DNA of 64,000 nt from positions 129,641 through 193,640 of the forward strand of contig NZ_KQ130457.1 in assembly GCF_001046635.1 (NCBI RefSeq), written 5' to 3'. Position 1 is the stretch's first letter. Every line of letters starts with the position of its first letter. This DNA is from Novosphingobium barchaimii LL02. GTDB taxonomy: Bacteria; Pseudomonadota; Alphaproteobacteria; Sphingomonadales; Sphingomonadaceae. The position numbers were made by a program, and so were the translations under genes. This document shows positions 4,839-17,547 of the stretch, one piece after another. The notes under the pieces were generated by a model. The model was not told the DNA's origin. It did not search any database and saw nothing but the letters and a program-made list of their open reading frames with translations.

Positions 4839-5375
4839 ATGAACGACATGACCTCGCTGGTGAGCCGGCGGCAGGCCGCTGCCGATGACGCGGCGCTGCG
4901 CGATACGCTGCTGCGTTTCGTCACCGGACGCCTGCACGACCGAACCGAAGGCCAGGACATCGTCCAGGAAACCTACGTCCGCCTCTACGACTATCGGCGC
5001 AAGCGCTCGATCGCGGACGCGGCGGCGTTCTGCTTCGCGGTCGCCCGCAATCTCGTCCACGACCACTTCCGGCGGCTGCGCACGATGCCGCCGGCCGGCG
5101 AACTGTGCGAAGACATCCCTTGCCCGCAGCCGCGTGCGGATGAGGTTCTCGACTATCGTCAGCGCTTGGACATCCTGTCCTCGGCGCTGAAGGTGATGCC
5201 GCCGCTGCGCCGGGAAATCTTTATGCGCCGCAAGTTCGACGGGGTGCCCGGCGCGACCATCGCCGTTGACCTCGGCATGACCCAGGCCGCCATCGACAAG
5301 CACTGCACTCGCGCGCTGGCGGACCTGCGCCACGCGCTCGAGCGGCGCGGCCTTACCGTGTCGGAGCACCCATGA
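4839..5375 (+). CDS. fecI-like: ECF RNA polymerase sigma factor, FecI type
   Basis: 178 aa from the ATG at 4839 (MNDMTSLV); an upstream in-frame ATG at 4803 adds 12 uncharacteristic residues. Sigma-2 region: DIVQETYVRLYDY then AAAFCFAVARNLVHDHFRR. Sigma-4 region: LPPLRREIFMRRKFDGVPGATIAVDLGMTQAAIDKH in character. The stop overlaps the FecR start (ATGA), and a TBDT with an N-terminal signalling domain follows, giving the complete sigma/anti-sigma/receptor order of Fec-type cell-surface signalling. It should direct transcription of the receptor gene when the receptor is occupied. Confidence 0.9.
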   Translation: MNDMTSLVSRRQAAADDAALRDTLLRFVTGRLHDRTEGQDIVQETYVRLYDYRRKRSIADAAAFCFAVARNLVHDHFRRLRTMPPAGELCEDIPCPQPRADEVLDYRQRLDILSSALKVMPPLRREIFMRRKFDGVPGATIAVDLGMTQAAIDKHCTRALADLRHALERRGLTVSEHP

Positions 5376-6325
5376 GCCGCCGTGCCGTCCTGATGGACGC
5401 CGCCCGCTGGGCGATGCGCGAGGACGATGCGGCGCTGGACGAAGCGCCGCCCGCGGCCGCCGCCGAGGTCCAGGCCGTGCTCGACGATCCCGCACTGGGC
5501 GAAGCTCTGGCCGAACTCGATGGCATCGGCCGGTTGTCCGATGCTCAGGTCCTGGCGATGCGGCAGGGGCGGCGCCGCGCGCTCGGCGCCGGGCTCGCCT
5601 CGGTGCTGGTCGCGTTGGTCGGCATCGGCGGCTGGAACCACGACTGGGCCGGTGTGGCGTCGGTGCCGCGCGAACACTTCGAGACCCGGCGCGGCGAACA
5701 GATGACCATCGAACTGGCCGATGGCTCGACCTTGCAACTGGACGGGGCGACTGCGCTCGACGTCGAGATCGGCGGCGGCCACCGCATCGTCGAACTCCAG
5801 CGGGGCGAGGCCTACTTCGACGTCGCCCACGATGCCGCGCACCCCTTCGAGGTGCGCGCGGGGGATTCCAGCACGCGGGTCCTGGGCACTGCCTTCACGC
5901 TGAACCGGGACAGCCGCGACGTGAAGCTGGCGGTGTACCGAGGCGCGGTGCGGTTCGGCGGCTACCGGACTGGGCGCGAAGGCGTCGTCGTCCCGGCGGG
6001 GTGGCGTTCGCGCTTCAGCGGCGGGGTGGCGCAGTCGCCTACGCGCTTCGACGCGGCCCAGCAGGACTGGCGCCAGTCGTGGATCGACACCGACGACATG
6101 CGGCTCGGCGAACTCGTGGACGCGCTGAACCGTCGTCAAGGTCCCGAGATCATCGCGCCATCCGCCGAGTTGGCGGCGATCCCGCTCGCAGGCCGCTTCA
6201 AACTCGACGACGCGCGAGGGCTGCTCACCGTAATGGGCGACGTCTACGGCTTCCGCGTGGAAACAACGCAGGGGCGCCTGCGGCTCGTGGCCGCCGCAAG
6301 TGACGCAAAAGCGCCATTAAACTGA
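5372..6325 (+). CDS. fecR-like: FecR-family anti-sigma regulator
   Basis: 317 aa. The cytoplasmic N-terminal part (1-69) contains the AARWAMRED-type DUF4880 motif. There is one membrane span at about 70-88 (LGAGLASVLVALVGIGGW), then a periplasmic FecR domain at about 100-200 (RRGEQMTIELADGSTLQLDGAT, GEAYFDVAHD, RVLGTAFTLN). A C-terminal STN-like segment (LVDALNRR, IPLAGRFKLDD) ends the protein and should contact the receptor signalling domain. Overlaps fecI by 4 nt, so translation is coupled. Confidence 0.92.
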   Translation: MSRRAVLMDAARWAMREDDAALDEAPPAAAAEVQAVLDDPALGEALAELDGIGRLSDAQVLAMRQGRRRALGAGLASVLVALVGIGGWNHDWAGVASVPREHFETRRGEQMTIELADGSTLQLDGATALDVEIGGGHRIVELQRGEAYFDVAHDAAHPFEVRAGDSSTRVLGTAFTLNRDSRDVKLAVYRGAVRFGGYRTGREGVVVPAGWRSRFSGGVAQSPTRFDAAQQDWRQSWIDTDDMRLGELVDALNRRQGPEIIAPSAELAAIPLAGRFKLDDARGLLTVMGDVYGFRVETTQGRLRLVAAASDAKAPLN

Positions 6326-6415: not shown

Positions 6416-9400
6416 ATGTTGATACGGGGAATCTCTCTTAGCTCCTTGGCCATTGCGCTGGCATTCGCCGCGCCCGGCGTCGCTCAGGCGGGCACGGCCA
6501 GCACCGCGCTGAACCGCCAGATGCAGTTCGCCATCGCGCCGTCGGACCTCAGGACCGGGATCTCGCAGTTCTCGCAGGCGACCGGGCTTCAGGTCGTGGT
6601 GAAGCCGGCGGCCGTTTCCGGATTGCGGACCGGCGGCGTGCGCGGTGCCCACACGGTGCGCGAGGCGCTCGACCAGCTGTTGCGCGGCACCAACCTCTCG
6701 GCGCAGATGCAGGGCGGGATCGCCGTGCTGAAGCCAGCCGCGAGCCCGGCGCCGGTTCGCCGCATGACGCAGGTGCAGTATTCCGCCGTCTCCGCAGCCG
6801 AAGCCCCGGCAGCGACAGGGACCGACTTCGAGCCGGCATCGGAGGAGATCGTCGTCTCGGGCTACCGCCAGAGCATCGCCCAGGCGCAGGAACTCAAGCG
6901 CCGCGCGGTCGGCGCCGAGGATGACATCGTCGCCACCGATATCGCGGCCTTTCCCGACCTGAACCTGGCGGAATCGCTCCAGCGCATTCCGGGCATCACC
7001 ATCACCCGTGACAGCGGCGAAGGACGCCAGATCGCCCTGCGCGGCCTCGGTGCCGACTTCACCCGCACCCAGCTCAACGGCATGGAAGTGCTTGGCAACA
7101 CCGCCTCGGGCATGGACAACCGCGGCGGCGTAAGCCGTTCGCGCTCGTTCGACTACAGCCTGTTCGCCTCCGAACTGTTCAACCGCGTCGCGGTGCAGAA
7201 ATCGTACTCCGCCGAACAGGACGAGGGCGGCATCGCCGGCACCGTGCAACTCTACAGTGCCAAGCCGTTCGACTACGACGGCACGAAGTTCGTCGTTTCC
7301 GCCAAGGGCCAGACCAATACCAACACCGACGGCGTGACGCCGCGCGTGGTCGGCCTCGCCTCGGGCCGCTGGGGTGACTTCGGCGCGCTGGTCTCTGTCG
7401 CCTACAGCCAGATCCGCAACAACGAATACGGCTATCGTAACTGGGGCTGGGGCCTCACCAAGTACAACGCGGCGAACATCGGCCCGAACATCGACGCCGC
7501 GACCCGCCAGCAATTGCTGAACGGCGTTTGGCAATCGACCGCGCAGTCGCCGTCCAGCTGGTACACCGACCGCAAGCGCCTCGGCATCACCTCGGCGCTG
7601 CAGTACCACCCGGGCGACAACTTCAAGCTCGATGTCGACCTGCTCTACGGCCGCCTGTCCGATAATCGCGATGACTATGCCCTCGCCACCGCCGGAGCCA
7701 ACCCGCTGACCGGCACCGCGATCGGCGGAACGCAGGTCATCCAGAGCGCAACGATCGACGATTCCAACACGCTGCGCGCCGCGAGCTACACCGGCATCGA
7801 CCTGCGTTCCGAGCATCACATCGTCAAGAACCACACCGACTTCTACCAGGGCGTCGCCAACCTCAGCTGGGACGTGAGCGAACGTCTGAGCATCCACGCG
7901 CTCGGCGGCGTCGAGGAATCGAAGTTCTCGCAGCCGGTGTTCGACAAGGTGTTCATGGAGCTGAAGAACACCGCCTTCAGCTTCGACATGCAGCCGACCA
8001 TCCCGGTCAACACTTACGGCAAGGACCTGACCGATCCGAACAACTGGGCGCTGCAGCGCCTCGACGTCCAGGAAAACAAGGTCACCAGCCGGTACACGAA
8101 CGGCAAGCTGGACGGCGCCTACAAGCTGGACGATGCGCTGACCCTGAAGGCCGGCGGCGAGTACAAGCACTTCGTCAACAGCGGCTACACCTGGGCCAAC
8201 AAGGTGTTCCACAACGTGCCCACGGTTACGCAGGTCCCCAATAGCGTCAAGCAGACGGTGCCGGTGGACACGTTGCTGCAGTATATCGTCGGCAACGTCG
8301 ACGGCGTCTATTCGCTCATCGGCGACAACCGGAGCCTGACCGCCGCCTATCTGCAAGCCGGCAGCGACTACCGCGTGGACGAGGAGACCTGGGCCGGCTT
8401 TGCCCAGCTCGACCTTGATACCGAGGTGGGTGGCATGCGGCTGCGCGCAAACGCGGGCGTGCGCTATTACTCGACCGACCTGACCTCGTCGGGCCACCTG
8501 GCGACGAGCGCTGGTTTCGCGCCCGTGTCGATCAGCACCAACAGCAACGGTTGGCTTCCGGCAGCCAACGTGGCGCTCGACGTGACGCGCGACGTGGTGG
8601 TGCGCCTCAGCGCCAGCCGCAACGTCAACCGGCCCGGCCTCAGCGACCTCGCCGCGGCGGGTTCGATAACGACCCGTCCGAACGGGGGGTCACTGAGCCT
8701 CGGCAACCCTTTCCTCAAGCCCTACAAGGCGACTTCGGTCGAAGGGTCGGTCGAATGGTACATGGACAGCCACGGCTTCGCCTCGCTCGGGTTCTTCTAC
8801 AAGAGCATGGACAGCTTCATCACCTCGTCCTCGAAGCAGATGCCCTATGGGGAGACTGGCCTGCCGCTGTCGCTGCTGATCCAGGGGCAGGACGCGAACA
8901 CGCCTTATGACGTCAGCCAGCCGATCAACGGCCCGGGCGCCGACATCAAGGGCATCGAAGCAGCGTTCCAGCACGACTTCACGTTCCTCCCCGGCGCGCT
9001 GAAGAACCTGGGCGTCTCGGCCAACGGCACCTGGTTCGACGGCCACCGCACTGCCTTCTACACCACCGGCGGCGTCACCACCTCGCGCGAGCTGCCGCTC
9101 GACAACCTCTCGAAATGGGCGTTCAACGCGACGATCTACTACGAGAATTCGCTGTGGGGCGTGCGTGTCTCCGACGCCTATCGCAGCCGCTACCTGACCG
9201 GCGCCGGCAACGCGCTCGCCAACTCGGGCGGGGGCATCAAGGCGACGAACAACGTCGACTTCCAGGCGCACTACAACATTCTGCCGGGCGTGCGCCTGAT
9301 CGCCGAGGGCATCAACCTGACGAACGAGCCGATCCAGCAGTTCGCCAACGTCGATGCCATGCGACCGGAGGTTTACACCACGAGCGGCCGAACCTTCAGC

Positions 9401-9424
9401 TTCGGCGTCAGCGCCGAGTTCTGA
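6416..9424 (+). CDS. TonB-dependent transducer receptor with N-terminal STN domain
   Basis: 1002 aa. Signal peptide to about residue 25 (GVAQAG), then a secretin/TonB N-terminal signalling (STN) domain at about 33-100 (FAIAPSDLRTGISQFSQATG, VREALDQLLRGTNLSAQ). A TonB-box-like segment EEIVVSGYRQS follows, then a plug with FPDLNLAESLQRIPGITITRD and RGLGADFTRTQLNGMEVL. The plug wording matches the Caulobacter/Xanthomonas TIGR01782-type receptors, many of which import carbohydrates or other non-iron substrates. The barrel ends FGVSAEF with a terminal aromatic. A strong GGAGG lies 8 nt before the ATG, 91 bp after fecR. The STN domain makes this the signal input of the FecIR pair. Substrate unknown. 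Confidence 0.92.
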   Translation: MLIRGISLSSLAIALAFAAPGVAQAGTASTALNRQMQFAIAPSDLRTGISQFSQATGLQVVVKPAAVSGLRTGGVRGAHTVREALDQLLRGTNLSAQMQGGIAVLKPAASPAPVRRMTQVQYSAVSAAEAPAATGTDFEPASEEIVVSGYRQSIAQAQELKRRAVGAEDDIVATDIAAFPDLNLAESLQRIPGITITRDSGEGRQIALRGLGADFTRTQLNGMEVLGNTASGMDNRGGVSRSRSFDYSLFASELFNRVAVQKSYSAEQDEGGIAGTVQLYSAKPFDYDGTKFVVSAKGQTNTNTDGVTPRVVGLASGRWGDFGALVSVAYSQIRNNEYGYRNWGWGLTKYNAANIGPNIDAATRQQLLNGVWQSTAQSPSSWYTDRKRLGITSALQYHPGDNFKLDVDLLYGRLSDNRDDYALATAGANPLTGTAIGGTQVIQSATIDDSNTLRAASYTGIDLRSEHHIVKNHTDFYQGVANLSWDVSERLSIHALGGVEESKFSQPVFDKVFMELKNTAFSFDMQPTIPVNTYGKDLTDPNNWALQRLDVQENKVTSRYTNGKLDGAYKLDDALTLKAGGEYKHFVNSGYTWANKVFHNVPTVTQVPNSVKQTVPVDTLLQYIVGNVDGVYSLIGDNRSLTAAYLQAGSDYRVDEETWAGFAQLDLDTEVGGMRLRANAGVRYYSTDLTSSGHLATSAGFAPVSISTNSNGWLPAANVALDVTRDVVVRLSASRNVNRPGLSDLAAAGSITTRPNGGSLSLGNPFLKPYKATSVEGSVEWYMDSHGFASLGFFYKSMDSFITSSSKQMPYGETGLPLSLLIQGQDANTPYDVSQPINGPGADIKGIEAAFQHDFTFLPGALKNLGVSANGTWFDGHRTAFYTTGGVTTSRELPLDNLSKWAFNATIYYENSLWGVRVSDAYRSRYLTGAGNALANSGGGIKATNNVDFQAHYNILPGVRLIAEGINLTNEPIQQFANVDAMRPEVYTTSGRTFSFGVSAEF

Positions 9425-9749: not shown

Positions 9750-11351
9750 TCAAAGGGGATCGTAGCTGAACAGCCACAGGGCGGACGCTTGCCGATCGTT
9801 GTCGCCAGCGCGCTGCAAGCGGCCAACGGCTGTATATGTGGTTCCCTGCCTCAATGCTCCGCCAGGCATCAAGCCGGCGAGGCGAGGTGACACGTAGAGG
9901 ATCACGTCATAGCCGTCTTGGGTCTTCATGCTCACGGCCGTGTAGCCCAAAGTGCCGCCGATCAGCCGACTGTTGACTTGGCCCATCCCCGTGGGCGGCG
10001 AAAGGTCGGTGATCTTGCCACTGATCCTGATAAGATTGCCGAGCGGTTGGTCGGTGGCGGGATTGAACGTGCGCCTGGTCGCTAACCTTTCCGCGTTGAT
10101 CTTTTCATAGTGGCTCAGGAGGTTTCCCAGCGAGGGATACTGGATCGTCCATTTGGTGTTGGCGGCATTCGAAAGCGTCAAATTGAAGATGTTGAAGAGG
10201 TTGTCCGTCCATCCGCCACAACCGTCCGCATCGTCACAGTACTTCCAGGCAGCATCCACCCACTGAAGGAGTTGAGCCTGCGGATCGGAGAACTCCGCCT
10301 CCTTCGCCAGCCCCGGGCCAAAGGCGACAGCGGCTTGGCGCTGGCGGGGAGCGACGACGACAACGGCGCCGTTGCCGACGTCGAGCTTGCCTACCCGTAA
10401 TTGCCGCATCATAGCCCAGGCATAATCCTGCGCACTTAGACCCTTAAGGTCGTCCACAACGAGAAACGAGACTTCGACACCAACGTCCTTGGCCAGCGAG
10501 AACAGTCGTGCTTCCATGGCTTTTACCCGGGCCGGATCGAGCTTGCCGGTCTCGTCATTAACAAAGTGACCGTATTTGAAGGGAACCGAGCCCGGCGCCG
10601 GAAGCGTGGGAGCGCGAGCAACCGTCTGCGCCCTCGCTATTGTACCGGGCTTAGCAGGCGGTCCCGCAGCAGCTTGACCCGTATCGCATTTTGCGCCGCC
10701 GTTCTGCCGGCAGGATTCTTCCCACCCTTGTCGTATGGCTTCGGCCCGGCTTTGCTTGTCGGGATGGGTCGGAGAGCCGTGGGCAGAACCCACCGTCAGT
10801 ATCATTCGTGTCGCATCGTTCAGCGGTGCGCCCATCTTCTGCAACACAAAGCCGCTGAACTTGTCGGCTTCCAGCTCGATTTCCGGCCGGCTGCCGCCGG
10901 GTACGATCGTGTGTCCTGAAAGATGGTGGGCGATTTCGTGGGCCATCACGCTGATAGGACCCCACTTGCTGCCGCCGACCGCCTTGGTGGCTTCGCTCAT
11001 GAACTGCGGGTTAAATGCGATGACACGGCGCGGGACCCGCTTGTCATCCAGCAAGATCACGGCTGCCGCATTGTCTACCGGGCCTGAGACAACCACGAAG
11101 TTCGCCGGCAGCCCGGTGAACTCCATGATCCGCCGCACTGCCAGCGCACAGTCGTTAGGCGCCCGGCCGTCCAGAGACGACGCGGAAGCCTTCACCGGCG
11201 CGCCGTCGTAGGAGCAGGCCTGAAGCGTGGAAGCGATCGCTTCAACCTTGTCCGAACTGGACAGGCTGGTAGCCGACTGTTCTGCCTGAGGTCCGCACCC
11301 GCCGACCAGCGTTACTAACGGAGTCAACGTCAGACAAGCAAATCGCCGCAT
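9750..11351 (-). CDS. Lipoprotein: zinc metallopeptidase domain fused to a TPM-phosphatase-like domain
   Basis: 533 aa. The lipobox LVGGC places lipidated Cys at residue 19. Residues about 60-215 form a gluzincin-like peptidase with the zinc motif HEIAHH (138-143) and a downstream acidic ligand candidate in EIELEADKFSG. After a Pro/Ala linker, residues about 262-390 resemble a TPM domain (DPARVKAMEARLFSLAKD, GVEVSFLVVDDL, GNGAVVVVAPRQRQAAVAFGPG). The last 110 residues are unassigned. Each domain is known alone; this order on one lipoprotein is unusual. Transcribed 13 bp after the DUF3667 gene. Probably acts at the envelope in protein turnover; substrate unknown. Confidence 0.7.
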   Translation of the reverse strand: MRRFACLTLTPLVTLVGGCGPQAEQSATSLSSSDKVEAIASTLQACSYDGAPVKASASSLDGRAPNDCALAVRRIMEFTGLPANFVVVSGPVDNAAAVILLDDKRVPRRVIAFNPQFMSEATKAVGGSKWGPISVMAHEIAHHLSGHTIVPGGSRPEIELEADKFSGFVLQKMGAPLNDATRMILTVGSAHGSPTHPDKQSRAEAIRQGWEESCRQNGGAKCDTGQAAAGPPAKPGTIARAQTVARAPTLPAPGSVPFKYGHFVNDETGKLDPARVKAMEARLFSLAKDVGVEVSFLVVDDLKGLSAQDYAWAMMRQLRVGKLDVGNGAVVVVAPRQRQAAVAFGPGLAKEAEFSDPQAQLLQWVDAAWKYCDDADGCGGWTDNLFNIFNLTLSNAANTKWTIQYPSLGNLLSHYEKINAERLATRRTFNPATDQPLGNLIRISGKITDLSPPTGMGQVNSRLIGGTLGYTAVSMKTQDGYDVILYVSPRLAGLMPGGALRQGTTYTAVGRLQRAGDNDRQASALWLFSYDPL

Positions 11352-12498: not shown

Positions 12499-13674
12499 TC
12501 ACTTCGCCAAGCGTTGCCCAAATGCAGCGGCGAAGGCATCGTAGCGGCACGGGGCCATGACGCAGCCGGGTATGCGCAGCGGCGTGAGCGAGACCTGCGC
12601 GCCCAGCCCGCGCAGCGTATCGGGCGGTTGGGTGCGATAGGATGCGCGCACGTAGCGTAGGCCCGAACGCACATCGCGCAGGCGCTCGATCAGGATCGCA
12701 CCGCCCGGGGGGACGTCGTTCGTCGCATAACCCTCAGCGGGCAGATCGACCCCCAGCGCGGCCGCTAGAGCGGTGACGTTGGTGTCGTGGCCCATCAGCA
12801 CTTCGAAAGCGGGGCCGTGGTCGAGAGTGTCGAGGATGCGCCGTCCCAGTGCGCTTGCCTGGTGCGCGGCCATATAGGGCGGACGGGTGTAGACGGCGAA
12901 CAGGTCCGCGTGCAGGCGGCCGAGCCGCTGCAGCCCCGCCGCATCGATGCGTCCCCAGCCGACCTGGTCGGTGGGCATGCCTTCCAGATACTGCAACAGC
13001 AGCACTTGCGCGATGCCGGACGCGCTGCGGATCGGGCCAGAAAGCGCGATATCGTGGCCCCGCGCGGCGATGGCGGGGGCAGCCGGGGGCAGGCAATCGC
13101 CCTCGCCGCAACCCAGCACCCGGTTGAGCAGGGCGAGTTCCGCACGATCGTGCTCGGCGAGCCGGGCCATGCCGCCGGTCGAACGGTTGATATCGGCCAC
13201 GGCGGCTTGGGCATCGAACGCGGTCGCTTTCGCGCGCAAGGGCTCGAAGATCGGATCGGCCTGCGGTTCATCGAGATGCGAGACCGCCAGATCGCACTGC
13301 GGCGCAAAGCCCCTGACATAGGCTACCGCGCTGGCGATCGCGCGAGGCGACGTGTTAGCGATGAACGACACCGACCCCGATTTCGGGCATCCTCCGGCGT
13401 CCATCAACCCGCGCGAGGCGAGCAGGCGGCGGTCGGTTTCGGCGACGATCTCCAGCGCCCGTTCGCCATGCGGGGTTACGACGCTTTGCGCCACGCCCCA
13501 GACGGGCCATGGCCGGTCCGTACGCGTGCCTTCGGGCACTTCGCCGTCGAGCGGTGCGCGGATGCCGTGCCGCATGACCAGCACGGCGCGCTCCGTCACC
13601 AGGTCCCCCGGCGCGGCGTGAGCGACCGCCGGGATCAGCAGCGCCAGAGCCGCAAGCAGGCCGCGCGCGATCAC
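12499..13674 (-). CDS. Histidine acid phosphatase, phytase-like
   Basis: 391 aa. Signal peptide to about residue 20 (AVAHA-AP). It carries both catalytic signatures of two-step histidine phosphatases: RHGIRAP (R35-P41, nucleophile His36) and HDTN (296-299, proton donor Asp). Length fits periplasmic AppA-type phytase/glucose-1-phosphatase. It is the last gene of an operon TBDT - PI-PLC-like - phosphatase, starting 13 bp after the PLC stop. The context points to release of phosphate from inositol phosphates or other phosphomonoesters in the periplasm. Phytate as actual substrate is inference. Confidence 0.87.
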   Translation of the reverse strand: MIARGLLAALALLIPAVAHAAPGDLVTERAVLVMRHGIRAPLDGEVPEGTRTDRPWPVWGVAQSVVTPHGERALEIVAETDRRLLASRGLMDAGGCPKSGSVSFIANTSPRAIASAVAYVRGFAPQCDLAVSHLDEPQADPIFEPLRAKATAFDAQAAVADINRSTGGMARLAEHDRAELALLNRVLGCGEGDCLPPAAPAIAARGHDIALSGPIRSASGIAQVLLLQYLEGMPTDQVGWGRIDAAGLQRLGRLHADLFAVYTRPPYMAAHQASALGRRILDTLDHGPAFEVLMGHDTNVTALAAALGVDLPAEGYATNDVPPGGAILIERLRDVRSGLRYVRASYRTQPPDTLRGLGAQVSLTPLRIPGCVMAPCRYDAFAAAFGQRLAK

Positions 13675-13687
13675 TTCAGGGCTTCCT

Positions 13688-14818
13688 TCAAGGATTCAGC
13701 GTGCAGCCGGCGGCCACGCGTACCGGGCTGCAGCCCGCCATCGCGCCGTTCGGCAATGTGACGGTGAAGTGCAGGCCCAGCGGGTCGGGCGCGCCGGGGT
13801 AGTAGTCGGTGCTCACCGCCTGCGCGCCGCTGTCTATCGCCGCGTGCATCTTGGCGAAATCGTGGGCGCGCGCCTCTACGGTGTTGGCGTCGGTGCGGGT
13901 GCGCACGATCACGCCCGACTTGACCCATTCGCGGATCTTCGCGCCATCGAGGAGCGGGTCCTGCACGATCTGGATCGCGCTTTCCGGCTCGCCATCGGGA
14001 TACCATCCGAACATCGCCCGTCCCCGCAGTGAGGGGTGACCGGCGCGGTACACGTCCGAGACGGCCTTGCGCACGTCGAACAGGACATAGATGCGCCCAA
14101 GCGCCGCCTTCAGCGTCGGCCAGCCCTTCGTCTTGACCGCCCCCGCGAGTGTGGCGGCATCGCCGCGCACTTCGTCGGGGGTGATAAGCCGCTTGCCCGG
14201 CAGTGCCTTGCGGATTTCCGCGTCGAGCGCATCGAGCAGCCCCGCATCGTCGAGCGGCAGCGGCTGCGTGATCTCATGCGTGTTCGGGGTATCGGCGGCG
14301 TTGAGGGTCAGCATGATCGGCAGGTGACCAGGGTGCGCGCGCGACCACGCGTTCACTTCGGTCAGGCAGGCGACCAAGGTAGGGCACACGACGTGATAGT
14401 CGACGTCGGGAATGTGCAGCACTTTGTAGCCGGGCTTGCGCATCGCGGCCTCGTCAAAGCCGTCCTGCCTTGCGCGGGCGCGCTCGGCCGGCGAAAGCAG
14501 TGCCTGGCCCTTGGGCGCGGCATAGCGGCCGCCCTTGGGGTCTGCGAAGATGTCGATCTCCAGCTGGCGCACACCGGCGTCGAGCTGGGCGGACAGCGGC
14601 AGGTGGTAGTAATCCAGCGCCTCGGCCATTTTGGGATCGCTGCGGCGTATCTCGTCCATCACGGCCGAGGGAATGCGCGCCTTGAAGCTGTTGTGCGAAC
14701 CGACGACCTGGATGTCGTTCATGCGCAGATGCGAAGCACCTGTGGCTTCCTTCGCCGAGACCGGGGAGGCCACCGCCCCCCCGAGCATCAGCGCAGCGAG
14801 AACCGCAGCGCGCAACAT
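13688..14818 (-). CDS. Ca2+-dependent phosphatidylinositol-specific phospholipase C-like protein
   Basis: 376 aa, exported (signal peptide ending near SPVSA). The N-terminal part has GSHNSFK with catalytic His42, then QLDAGVRQLEIDIFADPKGG and YKVLHIPDVDYH with the second His. This is the pattern of the PI-PLC-C1-like family of the TIM-barrel phosphodiesterases. The ATG overlaps the TBDT stop by one nucleotide (TGATG), so translation is coupled. With the phytase-like enzyme downstream, it could cleave phosphoinositides or related phosphodiesters to soluble inositol phosphates. Confidence 0.85.
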   Translation of the reverse strand: MLRAAVLAALMLGGAVASPVSAKEATGASHLRMNDIQVVGSHNSFKARIPSAVMDEIRRSDPKMAEALDYYHLPLSAQLDAGVRQLEIDIFADPKGGRYAAPKGQALLSPAERARARQDGFDEAAMRKPGYKVLHIPDVDYHVVCPTLVACLTEVNAWSRAHPGHLPIMLTLNAADTPNTHEITQPLPLDDAGLLDALDAEIRKALPGKRLITPDEVRGDAATLAGAVKTKGWPTLKAALGRIYVLFDVRKAVSDVYRAGHPSLRGRAMFGWYPDGEPESAIQIVQDPLLDGAKIREWVKSGVIVRTRTDANTVEARAHDFAKMHAAIDSGAQAVSTDYYPGAPDPLGLHFTVTLPNGAMAGCSPVRVAAGCTLNP

Positions 14819-17454
14819 CAGAATTCCGCCCGCGCGCCGAACAGGATCGTGCGGCCATAGTCGTTGATATCGCCGTAGCGGATTGGCAGGTCGTTGTAGG
14901 TATACTGGCGTGCCTTGGCGATGTTGATCGCCTCGAGGCTGAGGGTGATGTTGCTGGTCAGGCGATAGGCAATCGATCCGTCGAGCGAGCCGAACGAGGC
15001 GGTATAGGTCGGCGCCTGCGTGGTGCTGCCGGTACCCGACAGGTAACGGTCGCGCCAGACATAGGACAGGCGGGTCGAGATCGGGCCTTTTTCAAAGAAG
15101 CCGACCACGTTGAAGCTGTTTTTCGACAGGCCGATCATCTCATCCTTGATGACGCGCGAACCGGCTGTGTAGTTCGCCTTTACCGAGGTGCGGGTGTAGG
15201 ATGCCTGGAAGCCCAGGCCGTCGAACGGCTGCGGCAGGAAGGTGAACACTTGGCTGTAGGCGGCCTCGAAGCCGTAGACCTTGGCGTCGCCGCCATTGAC
15301 CTGCGTGCTCAGCTGCACCGTCCCGCGACCCGGAATGTCGATCGGCACGTTCTGCTGGGTGATGTAGTCGTCCATCGACTTGTAGAACACCGCGCCGGTG
15401 AGTGAGCCGGACTTGTTGAAGTACCACTCCAGTGATCCGTCGAACTGCGTGGCAAGGAACGGCACGAGGTCCGGGTTGCCGCCGCTGGCGGTCGGCGCGT
15501 CGGTCGAGATGGTGATGCGCGGGGCGCTGTCGGTCACGTTCGGACGGGTCAACACGCGGCTGGCGCTGAGACGGCCGACCAGGGCGGGCGTCAGTTCGGC
15601 ACGCAGGTTGAAGCTGGGCAGGACGTTGTCGAACGTCTTGGGATAGCTGACAGGGGTGATGGCATTGCCGGTGCGCAGGTTGCCGCTGGCGACCTGTTTG
15701 GTGTGAACGTAGCGCACGCCGATATTGCCAGTGACGGCCACCGAACCCAGCGAGAAGTCGTAGTCCGCGCGGGCATAGGCGCTCAGGATCTTCTCGGTGG
15801 TGCGGAACGAGGCGGCCAGATCCGCGGGGGTCAGCGCCGAGTTCTCGACATCCGGGGTGAAGAATGCGTCGAGATAGGCGCTCGTCACCGGGACCAGGAA
15901 GTTGCGCGGGATATTGCCGCCAAGGCCCTGCAGGTAGTCGTCGAAGGGAAGCTGTTCGTAAGCACCCGAACCCAGGCTTGACAGCGGGGTGCCCGCAACC
16001 GGATTCACGATGAAATCGCGGCGGGAATAGTCGCGTTTGCGAAACTGGTACTCGCCGCCGACCGCCAGCTTGGAGATGAATCCCTCGAAATCATGAGCGA
16101 CATCGGCGCGGGTGTAGAAGTTCCAGTCCTTGCTGTTCTTGGGTGCGATGTTGAACTGGTAAAGCTGGTAATTGGCCGCGTTGGTGGGATCGACCGTGGT
16201 GTTGAAGTCCGGCACTTCCTTGTAGCCGCGCGTCGCGTCATACGTCAGCGGCGCGAAGAACATCGCGCGGCTGCGCACGGTGCCGACATCATAGCTGGGA
16301 TGATAGCTGTGCGCGTAGGACCAGTTCACCGTCCCGGCGACATGCCAGGCGTCATGGTCCCAGGTCTGGCGCAGGCCGACGTTGAACAGGTCGTGGCGGT
16401 TGAGGCTGTACTCGCGCGAGGCCATGAAGCGCACGTCGTTGATCGTTGCCTTCACCACGGTATCGCCATCGAGCACGGTGCTGCCGGGAACGATGGTGGG
16501 CCGGTGGCCGGCGACGCTGCTGTCGTCGGGATAGATGTCGAGGCCGTATTCGTCGTAGGCCACGTCGAGGCGGGTTGCCAGGACGTTGAGCGTCGTCGTC
16601 ATTTCCGGGTTCGGACGCCACTGCATGGACAACATGCCCGAGATACGCTCGCGCTTTTCGGTTTCGACCGTCGCGCGGGTACGTGTGGGCAGATAGAGAC
16701 CAGTCTGGCCCAGCTGCGAGGCGAAGCGGTCCTTGTACCAGCCAGCGTTGTACCAGCGGTCGTTGCGCACGTCCTTGGCCCAGTACTGGCCGCCCACAAG
16801 GATGCCGAACGTATCGTCCTTGTTGACCCAGCTGGTGATCAGGGTTGCATTCGGTTTAACCTTGCCGGTCTGCTCGGTGTAGGTGCCGCGCACGTTGAGC
16901 GTGGTCTTGGTGCCGACGTCGAACGGCTCGAAGGTCTTGACGTTGATGTTGCCGCCCAGCGCGCCCTCGGTCATGTCCGAGGTCGGGGTTTTGACGACAT
17001 CGATGCTGGAAGTGAACTCGGCCGGTAGCATCTCGAAGCGGAACTGGCGACCGGCAGCGCCGCCGTTTTCGATCACTTCGTTCACCGCGACAGGGCTGCC
17101 GTTGAGCAGGGTGTTCTGGAACTGGGGGCCAAGGCCGCGCACGCTGACGTTCAGGCCCTCGCCGCGCGGGCGGGTGATGGCGACGCCGGTGACGAGCTGC
17201 AGAGCCTCGGCGACGTTCTGGGTGGGGAATTTGCCAATGTCGGTCGAGTTGATCGAATCGACCTGGTACGAAGCGGTGCGCTTTGCCTCGGTCGCTGCGC
17301 GCAGGCTGCGGGCGTAGCTGCCGGTGACGACGATGTCCTCGCCATTGACGCCGGCTTCGGCATCAGGCGCAGTTTGGGCGGATGCCGGAAGCGCGATGGC
17401 CGCGAGCAGGATGGCCGACGTCGACGACGCCAAGGCCCGCTTGGTGATACGCAT
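14818..17454 (-). CDS. TonB-dependent receptor of the PI-PLC/phytase operon
   Basis: 878 aa. Signal peptide to about residue 26 (LPASAQ), TonB-box region GEDIVVTGSYARS, a plug with FPTQNVAEALQLVTGVAITR, RGLGPQFQNTLLNG and EFTSSIDVVKTPTSDMTEGALGG, and a barrel ending TILFGARAEF. No STN domain, so no FecIR-type signalling. It is the first gene of a three-gene unit with the phosphodiesterase and phosphatase, which suggests a phosphorylated organic substrate (inositol phosphate) rather than a siderophore. A Pho-box-like element lies upstream. Confidence 0.9.
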   Translation of the reverse strand: MRITKRALASSTSAILLAAIALPASAQTAPDAEAGVNGEDIVVTGSYARSLRAATEAKRTASYQVDSINSTDIGKFPTQNVAEALQLVTGVAITRPRGEGLNVSVRGLGPQFQNTLLNGSPVAVNEVIENGGAAGRQFRFEMLPAEFTSSIDVVKTPTSDMTEGALGGNINVKTFEPFDVGTKTTLNVRGTYTEQTGKVKPNATLITSWVNKDDTFGILVGGQYWAKDVRNDRWYNAGWYKDRFASQLGQTGLYLPTRTRATVETEKRERISGMLSMQWRPNPEMTTTLNVLATRLDVAYDEYGLDIYPDDSSVAGHRPTIVPGSTVLDGDTVVKATINDVRFMASREYSLNRHDLFNVGLRQTWDHDAWHVAGTVNWSYAHSYHPSYDVGTVRSRAMFFAPLTYDATRGYKEVPDFNTTVDPTNAANYQLYQFNIAPKNSKDWNFYTRADVAHDFEGFISKLAVGGEYQFRKRDYSRRDFIVNPVAGTPLSSLGSGAYEQLPFDDYLQGLGGNIPRNFLVPVTSAYLDAFFTPDVENSALTPADLAASFRTTEKILSAYARADYDFSLGSVAVTGNIGVRYVHTKQVASGNLRTGNAITPVSYPKTFDNVLPSFNLRAELTPALVGRLSASRVLTRPNVTDSAPRITISTDAPTASGGNPDLVPFLATQFDGSLEWYFNKSGSLTGAVFYKSMDDYITQQNVPIDIPGRGTVQLSTQVNGGDAKVYGFEAAYSQVFTFLPQPFDGLGFQASYTRTSVKANYTAGSRVIKDEMIGLSKNSFNVVGFFEKGPISTRLSYVWRDRYLSGTGSTTQAPTYTASFGSLDGSIAYRLTSNITLSLEAINIAKARQYTYNDLPIRYGDINDYGRTILFGARAEF

Positions 17455-17508
17455 GTAAGATGTGCCCCGAAGAGATTTTTATGTTGGGGGGCCACTAGGA
17501 ACCACTGG

Positions 17509-17547
17509 TGACGCTTCGCGGTCAAAGCCGTGACGGTTTGATGACCT
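17509..17547 (-). promoter_or_regulatory. Candidate Pho box upstream of the TBDT/PI-PLC/phytase operon
   Basis: On the minus strand, AGGTCATCAAACCGTCAC (17547-17530) matches the enterobacterial Pho box CTGTCATAAAACTGTCAC at 14 of 18 positions, with GTCA cores exactly 11 bp apart. A third GTCA core at 17512-17509 lies a further 22 bp on, the same 11-bp register. The element is about 55-95 bp upstream of the receptor ATG. PhoB control is inferred from this spacing and the phosphatase content of the operon. Confidence 0.45.

Follow-up and report, generated by a model that had tools for sequence, protein, structure and literature searches.

The histidine acid phosphatase, the phosphodiesterase and the TonB-dependent receptor encoded side by side in Novosphingobium barchaimii LL02 raise a simple question: what does this receptor bring in through the outer membrane, and do the two hydrolases release phosphate from it? 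The initial annotation had read the three genes as one machine for the capture of organophosphates. We examined this idea by comparing the window (the whole stretch of DNA analysed, 64,000 nucleotides) with related loci, with respect to gene order, protein families and promoter sequences.

Organization of the Operon

The existence of a single minus-strand operon in the order TBDT-PLC-HAP (Table 1), proposed in the initial annotation, was borne out by the ORFs, by the Pfam families and by the gene junctions: TBDT and PLC share a single base (TGATG), while PLC and HAP are separated by a 13-bp gap, where a purine-rich AAGGAAG precedes the GTG start of HAP. Reading by eye, the N-termini of both PLC and HAP are signal-peptide-like.

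Table 1. Position of the features of the window and of related loci, with the genes lying directly downstream of PLC-less receptors.
Feature	Locus	Position	Strand	Remarks
TonB-dependent receptor (TBDT)	window	14818-17454	minus	878 aa ORF; TIGR01782 subfamily, Plug + barrel, no STN
PI-PLC-C1 phosphodiesterase (PLC), putative	window	13688-14818	minus	376 aa ORF; PF16670; signal-peptide-like N-terminus
Histidine acid phosphatase (HAP), AppA/Agp type	window	12499-13674	minus	391 aa, GTG start; RHGIRAP + HDTN
Pho-box-like array	window	17508..17547	minus	four repeats phased at 11 bp, -93 to -54 from receptor start
FecR	window	5372-6325	plus	
STN-bearing TIGR01782 TBDT	window	6416-9424	plus	
TPM domain + M48-like metallopeptidase stretch	window	9750-11351	minus	single ORF; M48-like stretch below cut-off
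ECF-type sigma factor, FecR, STN-bearing TBDT, distant HAP	L169	2082-7816		
HAP, PC-type phospholipase C, PI-PLC	L172	4836-10093		consecutive genes next to a divergent TBDT
Divergent TBDT + PI-PLC	L060	3282-7098		Zymomonas mobilis, 32.8-kb plasmid
TbpB-barrel surface lipoprotein-like	L152	6613-8475		right after PLC-less receptor; Slam-dependent type
TbpB-barrel surface lipoprotein-like	L155	5905-7995		right after PLC-less receptor
Another TBDT	L154, L157, L158, L160, L161			downstream of PLC-less receptor
PHB depolymerase C-terminus	L159			downstream of PLC-less receptor
GST	L163			downstream of PLC-less receptor
LprI	L164			downstream of PLC-less receptor
LuxR/GerE regulator	L166			downstream of PLC-less receptor
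DUF4279	L153			downstream of PLC-less receptor
No family	L156, L165			downstream of PLC-less receptor

The receptor scored 654 bits against NCBIfam TIGR01782 (cut-off 310), and Pfam recognized a Plug and a TonB_dep_Rec barrel and no STN domain, as the initial annotation had it. A SusD-like lipoprotein was found neither in the operon nor among the flanking proteins scanned. Close to the operon, on the other strand, a FecR gene followed by an STN-bearing receptor is predicted to be a FecR-type regulated TBDT system, and a further ORF of the window combines a TPM domain with a stretch resembling M48 metallopeptidases.

The second protein matches PF16670 with 358 bits (cut-off 29.9) over the whole domain (profile positions 1-329 of 329), and its residues H42, N43, E87, D89 and H135, a set that presumably suits the active site of a Ca2+-dependent PI-PLC, are invariant in all the 20 proteins aligned. 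The match with the closest solved relatives, 5fyo and 3h4w, is weak and partial, with a good alignment over 117 and 109 profile positions only. The family, the similarity and the conserved residues point to a probable phosphodiesterase activity. A PLC 90% identical to it is encoded in Novosphingobium lindaniclasticum and on plasmid pSA1 of N. resinovorum, the nearest relatives seen being those of Novosphingobium.

As for HAP, Pfam assigned it to His_Phos_2 (48 bits), and the RHGxRxP and HD motifs of AppA-type phytases were both found in the ORF translation, in the form already annotated. Its scores against the NCBIfam AppA equivalog model (154.7 bits, cut-off 585) and the Agp model (131.4 bits) are both under the respective cut-off. 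Its nearest solved relatives are chains bearing the names histidine acid phosphatase, AppA and phytase. RHGVRAPTK in the five chains compared corresponds to RHGIRAPLD in HAP, the T-K pair being replaced by L-D. In AppA, phytate is contacted by this T-K pair, and Agp has L at that position; because of this replacement, HAP seems more likely to act as a monoesterase on phosphates of inositol or sugars than as a phytase. The lack of the T-K pair of the phytase-type chains compared also makes phytate less likely as the ligand, and the role of phytate importer that had been suggested for the receptor becomes doubtful.

Conservation of the Receptor-Phosphodiesterase Linkage

Scanning the collection with the window PLC yielded 56 loci, which share ancestry and are not independent; in 50 of them PLC is immediately preceded, in the same orientation, by a TBDT related to the window receptor. 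Six loci depart from this: L035; L052, L053, L054 and L056, which have distant PLCs; and L055, where the contig begins within PLC. HAP follows PLC in 15 of these 50 loci, and L001 has a fragmentary HAP copy. The genus to which Sphingomonas albertensis belongs (genome G003, locus L004) was sampled with 250 genomes: the receptor was found at no less than 67% identity in 76 genomes and PLC at no less than 59% identity 61 times, in a search that scores few candidates per genome, so that weaker matches may be hidden. According to a script check, all the 61 close PLCs adjoin a receptor orthologue of the same orientation, with -7 to 135 bp between the aligned stretches, and HAP lies directly downstream of PLC in 15 cases. 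From the family of G001, 199 genomes were sampled; they gave four receptor orthologues, all beside PLC, and the next-best TBDTs fall to 36% identity. The search for conservation of the whole triplet, suggested in the initial annotation, thus returned a conserved TBDT-PLC pair followed by HAP after only 15 of the 61 PLCs, and the triplet as a conserved unit was rejected, HAP being optional.

Fifteen of the 76 receptor orthologues have no close PLC alongside, and one of them forms a TBDT-HAP pair with a one-base overlap (L162). A replacement hydrolase beside these receptors was considered and rejected: on inspection of all 15 loci, HAP was found in L162 only, and in the other 14 the next gene encodes no phosphorus enzyme recognized by Pfam or by sequence cluster (Table 1). 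The contexts of the receptor clade are therefore PLC, PLC and HAP, HAP alone (L162), or neither. In L152 and L155, the receptor gene is adjoined by that of a TbpB-barrel lipoprotein, a domain familiar from iron-uptake partners, and it is possible that this lipoprotein is a surface co-receptor.

A Pho-Box-Like Array Upstream of the Receptor

The four repeats lying upstream of the window receptor (GGTCAT, CGTCAC, TTGACC and CGTCAC, at 11-bp spacing) resemble TGTCAT, the repeat form of PhoB sites. On a four-repeat score devised after inspection of this very promoter, the window reaches 16 of 24 vs. a mean of 11.35 in 165 control regions, which lie upstream of other genes in these loci. The best phased score of the 50 receptor promoters averages 14.24, vs. 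11.13 in Markov-generated sequences and 11.35 in the controls, and a phased score of at least 12 at the fixed position of -88 to -100 occurs in 37/50 receptor promoters vs. 5/165 controls. Eleven pstS-like genes from 11 of the same genomes, all below the curated cut-off of the model, were compared, and seven of them have an array of this kind between -73 and -102.

A matrix was also derived from eight of the 11 pstS upstream regions; in L148, one of the eight, the site lies at -32 relative to the start codon chosen, and L144, L145 and L146 were dropped because their ORF start was unresolved. With this matrix, 30 of the 50 receptor promoters exceed the 95th percentile of the controls and 20 fall below it (25/41 exceed it once near-identical promoters are removed). 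The window promoter is barely above this level, with 8.3 vs. a 95th percentile of 7.9, its best position being -109 and not the phased array. The threshold is exceeded by 13 of the 15 PLC-less receptors, L162 (TBDT-HAP) scoring 4.9, and by 7 of 12 TBDTs of a second group divergent from HAP, in their own direction, with scores that are not fully comparable because 330 bases were scanned vs. 200 for the controls. An earlier scan with a two-repeat consensus had given 23/50 promoters with at least 10 of 14 matches vs. about 7 expected from single-base shuffles, at scattered positions, and a free motif search on the promoters mixed two sequence groups. Of the new findings, these promoter data speak most strongly for phosphorus control; they are sequence evidence, from loci that share ancestry.

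PF16670 and HAP Genes beside Other Receptors

PF16670 occurs in 12 of 397 phylum-sample genomes and in 24 of 199 family-sample genomes. Of these 36 loci (G001 being left out, and G555, two rows with a broken gene at the contig start, lying outside the set), 27 have a TBDT ORF within 600 bp of the PF16670 gene (21/24 in the family and 6/12 in the phylum sample), and nine have none, six of them among the 12 phylum-sample loci. By chance, a TBDT neighbor would be expected for about 3% of genes, on the basis of 1535 Plug matches in 25 genomes (about 98.7 Mb, 950 genes per Mb being assumed), where TBDTs number 28-119 per genome, about 61 on average. The TBDT neighbors were recognized with HMMs derived from five seed groups of receptors, which may overlook unusual TBDTs; Pfam, run on one neighbor each of L119, L122, L129, L137, L184, L191 and L195, which had no TBDT hit, revealed no TBDT, L107, L116, L123, L128 and L130 being outside this check.

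In three of the 27 TBDT-adjoining loci (L103, L106 and L108), the receptor belongs to the clade of the window receptor. The receptors adjoining PF16670 match different seed groups best, and may be upstream, downstream or divergent. Annotated plasmids of Hymenobacter and Pseudoalteromonas carry the orders SusC-SusD-PLC and PLC-TBDT, respectively, and a Zymomonas plasmid carries a divergent TBDT-PLC pair (L060); 14 Zymomonas plasmid records match PLC, some of them partly. In a Granulicella plasmid, a large carboxypeptidase-regulatory-like protein precedes PLC. PF16670 is also present in Caulobacter vibrioides, which served as a search control.

HAP homologues are linked to receptors outside this operon as well. 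Among 20 loci picked by hand there, at 53-57% identity and away from a PLC, 12 have HAP adjoined by a TBDT of a different group. PLC, the second-group TBDT and HAP lie side by side in L170, L173 and L174, and L172 has the order TBDT, HAP, PC-type phospholipase C (PF04185 + PLipase_C_C), PI-PLC; since these four loci were chosen for PLC-HAP closeness, they show recurrence, not frequency. The row of hydrolases in L172 may be a larger phosphorus-scavenging cluster. In L169, where the sigma factor and FecR genes were confirmed, the STN-bearing TBDT is 38% identical to the window receptor; this arrangement, shared by L167, is possibly a signalling version of the same receptor-HAP theme.

Discussion

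The operon appears to be a well-supported variant of a type already known, related organophosphate uptake systems having been proposed earlier. In the passages of PMC8115612 considered here, PUSI of Flavobacterium johnsoniae is induced at low Pi and comprises PusCD1 and the phosphodiesterases Fjoh_4172/4173, one of which is a PF16670 protein; as in our locus, a TBDT-class transporter adjoins a PI-PLC-C1, and import of phosphodiesters followed by periplasmic hydrolysis was proposed. On the same passages, the two systems differ in that PUSI has a SusC-SusD pair, whereas the window encodes a single SusD-less TIGR01782 receptor; in the optional histidine acid phosphatase, a feature of this operon; and in the control by low Pi, which was demonstrated by induction for PUSI and is indicated here by promoter sequence alone (PMC8115612). 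In Citromicrobium bathyomarinum, also an alphaproteobacterium, a TBDT lies beside a phytase, and phytic acid was predicted as its ligand, the substrate being deduced from the neighborhood of an inositol-phosphate phosphatase as in the present case; the portion of that source considered mentions no PI-PLC, which is present here (PMC3400609). The PhoB regulon of Caulobacter similarly includes TBDTs, a phytase, a phospholipase C and phosphodiesterases, not stated, in the part of the text cited, to form one operon (PMC11208175). The window operon would work like PUS, i.e., a TBDT-class transporter co-encoded with a phosphodiesterase/phosphatase, without being a PusCD system.

The idea of one machine for organophosphate capture is favored by the tight receptor-PLC linkage, by the HAP-TBDT linkage and by the Pho-box-like array, with the reservation that HAP is an optional part of it. 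We hold with considerable confidence the wider view of a Pho-controlled uptake of organophosphates by a TBDT and periplasmic hydrolases. A more specific scheme, to which we give an even chance, is that of a phosphate-starvation operon through which a small organic phosphate compound, an inositol phosphodiester being the likeliest, is imported and cleaved to Pi in the periplasm. At low phosphate, PhoB would activate the receptor promoter, as the array suggests; the TBDT would import the small organophosphate across the outer membrane, glycerophosphoinositol or another water-soluble phosphatidylinositol fragment being candidates; the PI-PLC-C1, judging from its family and conserved residues, would cut the phosphodiester to inositol phosphate in the periplasm; and HAP, where present, would remove the monoester, leaving free Pi for the Pst system. 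Since a PI-PLC and an inositol-phosphate-type phosphatase stand behind one receptor under what appears to be shared phosphate control, an inositol phosphodiester is the simplest common ligand, an identification that we regard as tentative and a little short of even. Somewhat less assured is the combined proposal that the receptor clade is a dedicated inositol-phosphodiester importer and that, across several phyla, PI-PLC-C1 enzymes have repeatedly become partners of different TBDT groups.

Other ligands have to be considered. That the receptor serves a siderophore or another phosphorus-free nutrient, the hydrolases being chance neighbors, would fit the abundance of TBDTs in these genomes, the generic nature of the barrel and plug families and the iron-uptake partner domain encoded next to the PLC-less orthologues of L152 and L155; yet the TBDT linkage of PLC and HAP is far above background, the promoter is Pho-box-like and, among the neighbors annotated (a part of all), no siderophore gene appeared, which makes this explanation very improbable. 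The initial annotation had named siderophore genes beside the receptor as what would contradict it; the neighbors annotated gave no such case, but two PLC-less orthologues adjoin TbpB-barrel genes. A general scavenging of phospholipid phosphorus, where a range of head groups or short lipid fragments is taken up, PLC is one of several hydrolases and inositol is not special, is unlikely but deserves more weight: several TBDT groups pair with PF16670, L172 clusters a TBDT and HAP with both a PC-type phospholipase C and a PI-PLC, and the cited passages on PUSI present it as a likely scavenger of phosphodiesters of ubiquitous occurrence, lipid head groups and nucleic acids (PMC8115612). Against it, the partner of this operon's receptor is specifically a PI-PLC, all 61 close PLCs adjoining it, and the single locus in which the PC-type enzyme was recognized does not belong to the clade of this receptor.

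The import of phytate (InsP6 or a lower InsP), with HAP as the phytase and PLC as a secondary partner, appears quite improbable. A PI-PLC is not known to act on phytate; HAP directly follows only 15 of 61 PLCs, carries L-D in place of T-K, and stays below both the AppA and the Agp cut-off. On the other hand, its closest solved chains include AppA and phytase, and a related TBDT clade (37-38% identity) adjoins HAP in three of the four loci examined (L167, L169 and L180). Moreover, phytate is listed as a TBDT substrate and the Citromicrobium receptor adjoins a phytase, in the part of PMC3400609 considered. The claim of a little-described substrate class has accordingly to be narrowed, since phytate has earlier been listed, or predicted, among the substrates of TBDTs (PMC3400609) and PUSI, with its PLC and SusCD, has been published (PMC8115612); a full-text literature search found no demonstrated TBDT receptor for inositol phosphodiesters and, with most subscription journals outside it, no paper was recognized on the sphingomonad TBDT-PLC operon.

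Returning to uptake of an inositol phosphodiester, the operon offers a concrete and widespread candidate (76 of the 250 genus-sample genomes) for the uptake of organic phosphorus through the outer membrane of sphingomonads, in which the assignment of a TBDT ligand becomes testable, and PF16670 is suggested as a useful marker for phosphorus-related TBDTs. If the proposal is true, inositol phosphodiesters, i.e., phosphatidylinositol head groups such as glycerophosphoinositol, would be a TBDT ligand class, and the same kind of phosphorus-scavenging machine would have been built repeatedly from PI-PLC-C1 and different TBDT groups.
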